A DNA stretch of 59,391 bases, from positions 1-59,391 of the forward strand of contig JAAYPO010000115.1 in NCBI GenBank assembly GCA_012519745.1. The letters run 5' to 3'. Under the pieces are notes generated by a model. The model saw only the letters and a list, made by a program, of their open reading frames with translations. It did not search any database and had not been told where the DNA came from. Shown here one piece after another: positions 8,401 through 9,956 of the stretch. The translations under genes and the position numbers were made by a program. Every line of letters begins with the position of its first letter. The first letter of the stretch is position 1. The DNA is from Clostridiaceae bacterium. GTDB lineage: Bacteria > Bacillota > Clostridia > Acetivibrionales > DTU013.

Positions 8401-8507
8401 TCTGATATATGTGCACAGGCAGGCTTGGGCAATTATCTTTTTCTGCCTGCTGTCAGCTATTATTTTGCTTGGTGAATCGATAACTAAATTTTCAATAGGT
8501 AGGAGGT

Positions 8508-8613
8508 GGCAGTTATGGATCCCGAACCTTTATCCGGTTATTTTGATGAAAAAGCGAATAATAAATACTGGGCCATAGCTGCCGGCAAGGTAGCGGGGCT
8601 CCATTAAAGGAGG
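8508..8613 (+). promoter_or_regulatory. Candidate structural switch in the mgtE leader
   Basis: Three pairings compete. (A) GGCAGTTATGG 8508-8518, holding the leader ORF's start codon, is complementary over 11 bases (one G-U) to CCATAGCTGCC 8573-8583. (B) GCTGCC 8578-8583 pairs with GGTAGC 8589-8594, extended by GGGCC 8570-8574 with GGCTCC 8597-8602. (C) CTCC 8599-8602 can pair with GGAG 8609-8612, the mgtE Shine-Dalgarno. A excludes B; B excludes C. This is not the M-box (Mg2+ riboswitch): none of the M-box consensus that I know is present. Confidence 0.5.
8515..8607 (+). CDS. 30-residue leader peptide ORF upstream of mgtE
   Basis: ATG at 8515 is preceded by a perfect AGGAGG (8501-8506) with 8-base spacing; the ORF ends in TAA at 8605-8607, fifteen bases before mgtE. 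The product starts MDPEPLSGYF and ends AAGKVAGLH. Alternating acidic and proline residues directly after the start (D-P-E-P) are the pattern that destabilises translating ribosomes at low Mg2+; the enterobacterial mgtA leader peptide MgtL begins in the same way (M-E-P-D-P). A role as a translated Mg2+ sensor for mgtE is therefore inferred. It could also simply be a translationally coupled small protein, or a chance ORF inside a structured RNA. Confidence 0.6.
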   Translation: MDPEPLSGYFDEKANNKYWAIAAGKVAGLH

Positions 8614-8621
8614 ATCGCAAA

Positions 8622-9956
8622 ATGAAAGAAAGAATTCTCTTGCTTATTGAGCAGGGCAAATATGCTGAAATAAGAAAAGAAATCATTGAGATGAATGTTG
8701 TTGATATTGCGCAGCTTTTTGAAGAGATAGACCAGCAAAAGCTGCTGGTGGTTTTCAGGATACTGCCCAAGGATATCGCTTCAGGTGTATTCTCTTACAT
8801 ACCCTATGAGCTTCAAAGGTATATTATAGGATCAATAACCGACAGGGAAATAAAGAGTATTTTGGATGAGCTTTTCTTTGACGATACCATCGACTTTTTA
8901 GAAGAAATGCCTTCGAACATAGTGAAGAAGGTTTTGAAAAATACAGATGAAGAAACGAGAAAGCTTATCAACCAGTTTTTGAATTACCCTGAAGATTCTG
9001 CGGGCAGCGTAATGACCATCGAGTTTGTCGACCTGAAAAAGGAAATGACGGTAAAACAGGCATTACAGCACATCAAGGAAACAGGGGTAGACAAAGAGAC
9101 CATCAATACATGCTATGTTATCGACAACAATAGGATCCTTGAGGGTGTCATATCCATCAGAAAGCTGATATTAAGTGAAGAGTCAGCAGTGGTCAAGGAT
9201 ATCATGGAAAAAGATCCTGCGTATATAAACACCCATGATGACCAGGAGAAAATCGCATCGCTGTTTAAGAAATATGACTTCCTTTCAATGCCTGTGGTGG
9301 ACAACGAGCGCAGGCTGGTCGGTATAGTGACGATAGATGACATTGTAGACATCATTGACCAGGAAAATACCGAAGACTTGCAGAAGATGGCTGCTATGCA
9401 GCCTACGGAAGAGAAATACCTGAAGACGAATGCTCTGGTGCTGGCAAAGCATAGAATAGTCTGGCTTTTGATCCTGATGGTTTCAGCAACCTTTACAGGA
9501 AATATAATAAGAAAATTCGATGATATGCTCCAGTCGGTGGTCGTGCTTGCTTCATTCATCCCGATGCTCATGGACACAGGCGGAAATTCCGGCTCCCAGT
9601 CATCGACACTGGTCATCAGAGGCCTGGCTCTGGGAGAAATAAGCCTTAGAGACGCTTTAAAGGTTTTTTGGAAGGAGATCCAGGTGGGCTTTCTTGTAGG
9701 GCTGGCTCTATCTGCCGTAAATTTTGTAAGGATATACTATTTTGAAAGGATCGACCTGTCTATATCCATAACCGTAAGCATTACCTTGTTTTTTACCGTT
9801 GTACTGGCAAAGGTCGTCGGCGGTATATTGCCTATCATAGCAAAAAAACTTAAAATCGACCCCGCCATCATGGCAAGTCCTCTAATAACGACTATTGTTG
9901 ATGCTGCCGCTTTGCTGATATATTTCTCAACTGCAGCATGGTTGTTAGGCATATAG
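8622..9956 (+). CDS. mgtE: Magnesium transporter MgtE
   Basis: 444 residues, ATG with AAAGGAGG 8 bases upstream. Order of parts: MgtE N-terminal superhelical domain (about 1-125, with FDDTIDFLEEMPSN), two CBS domains (about 130-255, including DFLSMPVVDNERRLVGIVTIDDIVD), the plug helix, then five membrane segments (about 280-444) carrying the pore signature LMDTGGNSGSQSS. MgtE is a homodimeric Mg2+ channel gated by Mg2+ bound between the CBS and N domains. Length is normal for the family. Expression is probably set by the leader ORF and foldable RNA immediately upstream rather than by an M-box. Confidence 0.95.
   Translation: MKERILLLIEQGKYAEIRKEIIEMNVVDIAQLFEEIDQQKLLVVFRILPKDIASGVFSYIPYELQRYIIGSITDREIKSILDELFFDDTIDFLEEMPSNIVKKVLKNTDEETRKLINQFLNYPEDSAGSVMTIEFVDLKKEMTVKQALQHIKETGVDKETINTCYVIDNNRILEGVISIRKLILSEESAVVKDIMEKDPAYINTHDDQEKIASLFKKYDFLSMPVVDNERRLVGIVTIDDIVDIIDQENTEDLQKMAAMQPTEEKYLKTNALVLAKHRIVWLLILMVSATFTGNIIRKFDDMLQSVVVLASFIPMLMDTGGNSGSQSSTLVIRGLALGEISLRDALKVFWKEIQVGFLVGLALSAVNFVRIYYFERIDLSISITVSITLFFTVVLAKVVGGILPIIAKKLKIDPAIMASPLITTIVDAAALLIYFSTAAWLLGI

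Follow-up and report, generated by a model that had tools for sequence, protein, structure and literature searches.

A conserved leader peptide and three competing RNA helices precede mgtE in Clostridia and may form a translational Mg2+ switch

Introduction

The closest described relatives of the leader reported here are enterobacterial. The Salmonella uORF mgtQ has 8 codons and lies between mgtC and mgtB in a Gammaproteobacterial operon; its acidic codons 2 and 5 (Asp2/Glu5) abort translation, and the RNA around it is wired such that helix 1:2 forms over the uORF and helix 3:4 over the mgtB ribosome-binding site, which is freed when 2:3 forms instead (PMC8092293). In the E. coli leader peptide MgtL, ribosomes drop off at the sequence EPDP at low Mg2+, which allows the downstream gene to be expressed (PMC11282234, PMC11552253), and the mgtA leader that encodes it adopts two exclusive RNA folds coupled to Rho-dependent termination. 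In the corL-corA system of E. coli and Salmonella, uORF translation is inverse to that of the Mg2+ transporter, and the uORF has one conserved proline near its N-terminus (PMC11552253). Clostridial genes for the Mg2+ transporters MgtE, CorA and the NRAMP type are controlled by the M-box (RF00380), a ligand-binding aptamer that involves no peptide. Two further Mg2+-gene leaders are confined to particular groups, namely the mgtE motif of the Breaker laboratory, found in Thioalkalivibrio (PMC11109978), and the uORF-bearing mycobacterial M-box leader with its uORF2, described as mycobacteria-specific (PMC12810186); neither has been described with an M-[DE]-x-x-P leader peptide in the helix order reported below.

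Here we analyse the leader of mgtE in a 59,391-nucleotide stretch of clostridial DNA, the whole of which is called the window. It shares with mgtQ the 1:2/3:4/2:3 wiring, an early acidic residue, inferred control at the level of translation and service to a Mg2+ transporter gene. Unlike mgtQ, it belongs to Bacillota, its family is mostly 20–50 codons long, it precedes mgtE, corA or NRAMP-type genes as part of their 5′ leaders, the start codon of the leader itself is enclosed in helix 1, and in some relatives the leader is far from the gene. With MgtL it shares an acidic/proline N-terminus and two exclusive RNA folds, whereas ribosome drop-off is a feature of MgtL that is only inferred here; in place of Rho-dependent termination there is a translational platform next to the gene or, in at least one case, a terminator. 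The corL-corA system differs in being Rho-dependent, in serving CorA only and in having a different RNA fold (PMC11552253). The leader differs from the enterobacterial systems in host phylum, target genes and leader length, and its reach is unusually wide.

Results

A short ORF and three competing helices upstream of mgtE

The features of the locus are as follows.

8501–8506, + strand: leader Shine-Dalgarno (SD) sequence AGGAGG, read from the sequence
8515–8607, + strand: leader ORF of 30 codons, MDPEPLSGYFDEKANNKYWAIAAGKVAGLH, ATG at 8515 and stop codon TAA at 8605–8607, read from the sequence
8508–8518, + strand: segment 1, the 5′ arm of helix 1, GGCAGTTATGG, spanning the spacer between SD and start and the start codon itself (sequence, covariation)
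8573–8583, + strand: segment 2, CCATAGCTGCC, which is both the 3′ arm of helix 1 and the 5′ side of hairpin 2, the two being mutually exclusive (compensatory changes in both pairings)
8569–8603, + strand: hairpin 2 (segments 2:3), the alternative to helix 1, which leaves the mgtE SD unpaired (fold, covariation)
8599–8602, + strand: segment 3, the anti-SD CTCC, in hairpin 2 or in the SD hairpin (fold)
8609–8613, + strand: segment 4, the mgtE SD GGAGG, sequestered by segment 3 in the putative OFF fold (sequence, fold, covariation)
8622–9956, + strand: mgtE, a Mg2+ channel of 444 residues, ATG at 8622 (Pfam MgtE, MgtE_N and CBS)

The original prediction, which was made from sequence alone, described a leader ORF of 30 codons with an SD sequence and an M-D-P-E-P start, and this held with exact coordinates. 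It placed the end of the leader 15 bases before mgtE; the gap between the leader stop and the mgtE ATG is corrected to 14 bases. Neither strand of the 59-kb window holds a second copy of the strict leader motif. The predicted 11-pair helix hiding the leader start codon was found in exactly the expected position (8508–8518 with 8573–8583, one pair being G-U), and the alternative hairpin, proposed at 8570–8602, is present as 8569/8570–8602/8603. The small hairpin predicted over the mgtE SD (CTCC/GGAG, 8599–8602 with 8609–8612) was also confirmed. It comprises only 4 bp and is the weakest part of the window structure; in relatives the equivalent helix is often 8–12 bp, and there GUGGCUCU pairs with either GAGCCAU or AGGGCUGCAC, the alternatives for segment 3. 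RNAfold returned helix 1 and the SD hairpin for the whole window leader, and hairpin 2 when the 5′ part was removed. The mutual exclusion of neighbouring folds that had been proposed also held, with covariation in the competing helices of relatives.

A known riboswitch at this locus was considered and rejected. No Rfam family matched at the leader, at the gathering threshold or at E < 10, the M-box included, and the M-box model (RF00380) was unmatched at its gathering score, in keeping with the original statement that no M-box is seen here. No intrinsic terminator was found when the window leader was searched for one. Among close relatives, conservation begins at the leader SD; no conserved element could be recognised 5′ of it, the UTR there not being alignable even within this group.

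Two observations concern the surroundings of the locus. The only Rfam match in the window is a Cobalamin riboswitch (RF00174, 40875–41056, + strand, 112.9 bits). The window MgtE is 78–87% identical to proteins from other families of the same order and only 50% identical to the MgtE found in its own genus, and mgtE is absent from three of the four genus mates searched; mgtE and its leader appear to have been acquired together by horizontal transfer.

The start of the leader peptide is conserved

Upstream regions of mgtE were gathered by protein search from relatives and across the class, using GTDB contigs and extra stretches. Leaders were counted with a pattern of an SD sequence and [ATG]TG-GAY-NNN-NNN-CCN, with 15 open codons, at −400 to −80. 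The pattern was present in 77 of 128 mgtE loci, where dinucleotide shuffles gave an expectation of 0.13 and the reverse strand gave 0. When residue pairs at positions 2 and 5 were counted with none preselected, D,P ranked first with 77 loci and the runner-up reached 7. The leaders of the nearest relatives begin MDSGPLPGYF, MDPESLPYC, VDSEPLPCC, MDFDPLPSN and VDPVPLPVN, and those further away MDSHPEP, VDPYPEP, MDSSPLP, VDPGPLP, MDAYPGR and MDAGPSN; carriers include Acetivibrio mesophilus, A. straminisolvens, Geosporobacter, Alkalibaculum, Anaerovirgula and Alkaliphilus. The D-P-E-P start of the original prediction is, in its strict form, a local version of M-[DE]-x-x-P, which often reads MDSGPLP, MDSHPEP, MDPVPLP or VDPLPR.

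Conservation lies at the level of the amino acid, as judged from free third bases in the conserved codons (GAT/GAC; CCT/CCC/CCG/CCA) and from exchanges between D and E. The ratio of nonsynonymous to synonymous change was 0.50 for codons 2–7 vs 1.12 for codons 8–16. This ratio is biased, codons 2 and 5 having been used in the selection, and the residue-pair count is the unbiased test. Residues past codon 7 are unconstrained, and the reading frame is kept: in 23 of 24 aligned leaders the distance from the start codon to the 3′ arm of helix 1 is 46, 49, 55, 58, 61 or 64, all of them 1 mod 3, and codons 9–20 are open in 65 of 67 leaders, compared with 25 and 7 when the other frames are read. Where the helix is strong, the leader runs past the start of the 3′ arm in every case (43 of 43), whereas its stop codon has no fixed place relative to the gene and falls between 67 nt ahead of the mgtE start and 82 nt beyond it. 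Sequence that drifts freely while the frame holds is what would be expected of a leader that serves to take a ribosome across the 3′ arm. A chance ORF was rejected on the evidence of the shuffles, the reverse strand and the frame tests.

A side branch of leaders reads M-[DE]-x-[GD]-S-S or similar (MDAGSSNG, METDGSS, MDADSSNGT) and has no proline at codon 5. These leaders (L018, L020, L037, L043, L056, L230, L231, L233 and L234) lie 180–340 nt before mgtE, some with a long start-codon helix. Separately, L002/L057 has a natural leader-less copy about 100 nt upstream of mgtE. It lacks the leader's start and first codons, retains the helix arm GGTGGTAGTT together with the 3′ arm, and is preceded by what appears to be the tail of a transposon-type ORF.

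Compensatory changes support all three helices

When a plain MAFFT alignment of 24 leaders was submitted to RNAalifold, helix 1 was predicted and nothing else. In this alignment 96.9% of helix 1 cells are paired, with 19 two-sided compensatory cells vs 6.4 after shuffling, and pairing collapses when the arms are slid against each other. The outer stem of hairpin 2 is paired in 89.6% of cells, with 7 two-sided cells vs 1.9 shuffled, and the helix between segment 3 and the mgtE SD in 79.6%, with two-sided change at four pairs. In the wider, class-wide set the arms are very divergent, and each sequence was scored for its own pairing; the mean was 23.8 vs 14.2 shuffled for helix 1, 19.9 vs 11.6 for hairpin 2 and 15.6 vs 11.5 for the SD helix. 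Examples are ATGGAGGTGGTAGAATG/CGTTCTACTGCCTCTGT (L116) and GTGACAAAGTTGGATG/TATCCGGTTTTGTCAC (L111) for helix 1, GGAGGGCTAGAAACT/AGTTTTTAGCTCTCT (L099) for hairpin 2 and TAATATGGCTCT/AGGGCCATATTA (L047) for the SD helix. The recurrence of all three pairings indicates that segment 2 chooses between segments 1 and 3, and segment 3 between segments 2 and 4.

Conservation of the ORF start and covariation of the helices in related mgtE leaders were the checks proposed for the original prediction, and both were borne out. Its refutation would have been an absence of such conservation or the presence of a known riboswitch class, and neither was encountered.

The consequence of an early ribosome stop was modelled by placing a ribosome in silico at leader codon 5. 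Predicted accessibility of the mgtE start region rose in 28 of 43 leaders and fell in none; in the window it rose from 0.55 to 0.74. The effect is significant for the whole start region and only a trend for the SD core alone (0.55 to 0.60, p=0.06). Moreover, most of the gain remained when the 5′ arm was shuffled (0.081 vs 0.099, p=0.08), which suggests that other pairings of the masked stretch contribute and that the simulation fails to isolate helix 1. The folding model agrees with early-stopped ribosomes being the ON state, but with an unclean shuffled-arm control it does not prove it.

In the closest clade, as read from the sequence, CCUUUA of codons 5–6 could also pair with UAAAGG of the mgtE SD, which would account at the RNA level for some of the conservation in that clade. 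As a further observation, the loci with MDPGPxx or MDAGPSN leaders (L014–L016, L024, L116, L124, L125, L128 and L129) have start helices of 12–17 bp, with a further 300 nt or so of structured RNA ahead of mgtE.

The leader accompanies Mg2+ transporter genes

A covariance model, R1, was built from the close form of the leader and run on 391 whole Clostridia genomes at E < 0.001. It gave 43 matches, all at Mg2+ transporter genes: 42 lie directly before mgtE, and one, whose leader begins MDADPLSFNQ, precedes a gene matching Pfam CorA (L191). In other classes of the phylum R1 found another mgtE (L187) and, with a leader beginning MDAGPEQ, an operon in which the gene for a PRC/MgtE_N/CBS protein precedes an NRAMP-like gene (L190). 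A weak match inside a coding region (L189, genome G513) was set aside as chance.

NRAMP-related genes of this type have been shown to carry Mg2+ (PMC4072509). M-[DE]-x-x-P leaders, such as MEGDPLRW, MEAGPLSR and MDGDPANK, were present within 600 nt of 8 of 16 NRAMP-type operons vs 0.01 expected, and L026 provides a further one at −583. At L027 (2347–2575) an MDADPVGN leader lies within the NRAMP-type operon itself, with the PRC/MgtE_N gene on one side and the NRAMP gene on the other, and is followed by an apparent intrinsic terminator, TCCCTCC..GGAGGGATTTTT, the 5′ arm of which can pair with GGAGGGA of the leader. This may be a transcriptional version of the device, placed like mgtQ. With a slightly relaxed pattern, leaders were found at 13 of 29 mgtE loci from outside the class, a sample that includes a few loci of the same class; the VDPLPR leaders among them have a helix of 16–17 bp.

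In many loci the leader is preceded by an M-box riboswitch; none was found in the window or in the five nearest relatives that were scanned. Where leader and M-box share a transcript, the M-box is independent evidence of a response to Mg2+. This refines the original prediction: as the two coexist in many relatives, the leader cannot be regarded merely as a replacement for the M-box. On one contig that carries mgtE with both M-box and leader, a NiCo riboswitch was also seen (L041, 352–439).

Discussion

Membership among the translation-aborting (IRD-type) Mg2+ leader peptides, such as MgtL and MgtQ, also demands ribosome dissociation on the leader at low Mg2+ and a Mg2+-responsive, inverse relation of leader translation to transporter expression, both of which are inferred here by analogy; the folding simulation points in the same direction, with the unclean control noted above. 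The tests that sequence can address were a short ORF with its own SD 5′ of a Mg2+ transporter gene, early acidic and proline residues conserved at the amino-acid level, and exclusive RNA folds of which one hides or terminates the transporter gene. The first is met by the locus, the second by D2 and P5 in 77 of 128 loci and the third by covariation in three competing helices. The architecture is established: a short ORF with a strong ribosome-binding site and an M-[DE]-x-x-P start has no stop codon until it reaches the 3′ arm of a long helix that encloses its own start codon, and folds 1:2 and 3:4 are alternatives to fold 2:3. There is accordingly little doubt that a conserved leader peptide and a three-helix cis-regulator are real.

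How the element works is inferred. As its wiring and type of N-terminus match those of mgtQ, we judge that it works like mgtQ, and the best explanation, which we regard as probable by analogy, is a cis-acting translational switch driven by a leader peptide that aborts its own translation. At low Mg2+, ribosomes that initiate on the leader would dissociate or pause among its first acidic and proline codons; the start region would then be occupied, helix 1:2 could not form, hairpin 2:3 would form in its place and the mgtE ribosome-binding site would be free (ON). With sufficient Mg2+, ribosomes would continue along the leader, unwinding 2:3 and advancing towards the mgtE start or across it, and the RNA behind them would refold as 1:2 and 3:4, hiding both the leader and the mgtE start in a self-locking OFF state. 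In relatives with 150–340 nt between leader and gene, or with a terminator as at L027, the same leader would presumably work through another expression platform.

Mg2+ sensing by ribosome abortion or hesitation is likely, although no experiment supports it; drop-off on the leader, Mg2+ as the signal and the direction of the switch all rest on analogy. To this extent the peptide-based Mg2+ sensor of the original prediction is supported, with these three elements still inference. In many leaders, MDSGPLP for example, a single acidic residue is present, and one side branch (MDAGSSNG) lacks the prolines altogether, which suggests that intrinsic destabilisation may be weaker than in MgtL or that there is another abort signal.

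Of the alternatives, an amino-acid attenuator, in which the leader would sense charged tRNA-Pro or tRNA-Asp and not Mg2+ directly, appears unlikely. Proline-codon attenuation has reportedly been proposed for Salmonella mgtL and mgtP. In its favour, P5 and often P7 are conserved at the codon level, and a ribosome stalled on proline codons would use the same RNA logic. Against it, there are only one to three proline codons and never a run, and the partners are only Mg2+ transporters and M-boxes, not proline metabolism, so that neither membership test for such an attenuator is met; moreover, conservation of D2 equals that of P5.

A regulatory arrest peptide is similarly improbable. Here the MDxxP start would stall the ribosome, perhaps with relief by EF-P, an ABC-F factor or a Mg2+-dependent ribosome state. 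A stall at codon 5 would affect helix 1 in the same way as abortion, and the conserved residues are close to the start codon. Known arrest peptides, however, mostly act through longer nascent chains in the tunnel, whereas only the first five to seven residues are constrained here.

An RNA switch that senses Mg2+ directly, with the helices responding and the ORF merely keeping the start region busy, could draw on the strong, conserved alternative helices, but is very hard to sustain: there is no conserved unpaired core as an aptamer would need, conservation outside the helices lies in codons (GAY..CCN, with free third bases) and in the reading frame, and Rfam has no match at the locus. Plain translational coupling, in which the leader would deliver ribosomes by termination and re-initiation without sensing, gains some appeal from the window, where the leader stop (8605–8607) abuts the mgtE SD (8609–8613), but is more remote still, as leader stops are unfixed over the range given above and coupling has no need for M-[DE]-x-x-P or helix 1.

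The translation-aborting switch remains the preferred reading. A leader of this kind in Bacillota was not described in the open-access literature searched, and the original suggestion that a peptide-based Mg2+ sensor would be new in Firmicutes met no contrary report there; only open-licence text was covered, which is weak evidence of novelty. On a bolder reading, towards which the balance tips by a small margin, these leaders form a phylum-wide Bacillota class of peptide-based Mg2+ sensors, with M-[DE]-x-x-P and a start-sealing helix, that control the three unrelated families MgtE, CorA and NRAMP-related transporters, alone or with an M-box, and that either arose independently of MgtL and MgtQ or were inherited from a very old mechanism.

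As far as we could find, only enterobacterial leaders have been described as gauging Mg2+ by how stable the translating ribosome is. On the reading preferred here, the presence of leader and M-box on one transcript would raise the question of why two Mg2+ sensors are kept, and the many compact natural leaders offer material for asking which early codons make ribosomes fall off. If the inferred mechanism is true across Clostridia, for three transporter families and often beside an M-box, ribosome drop-off would be a general bacterial gauge of Mg2+.
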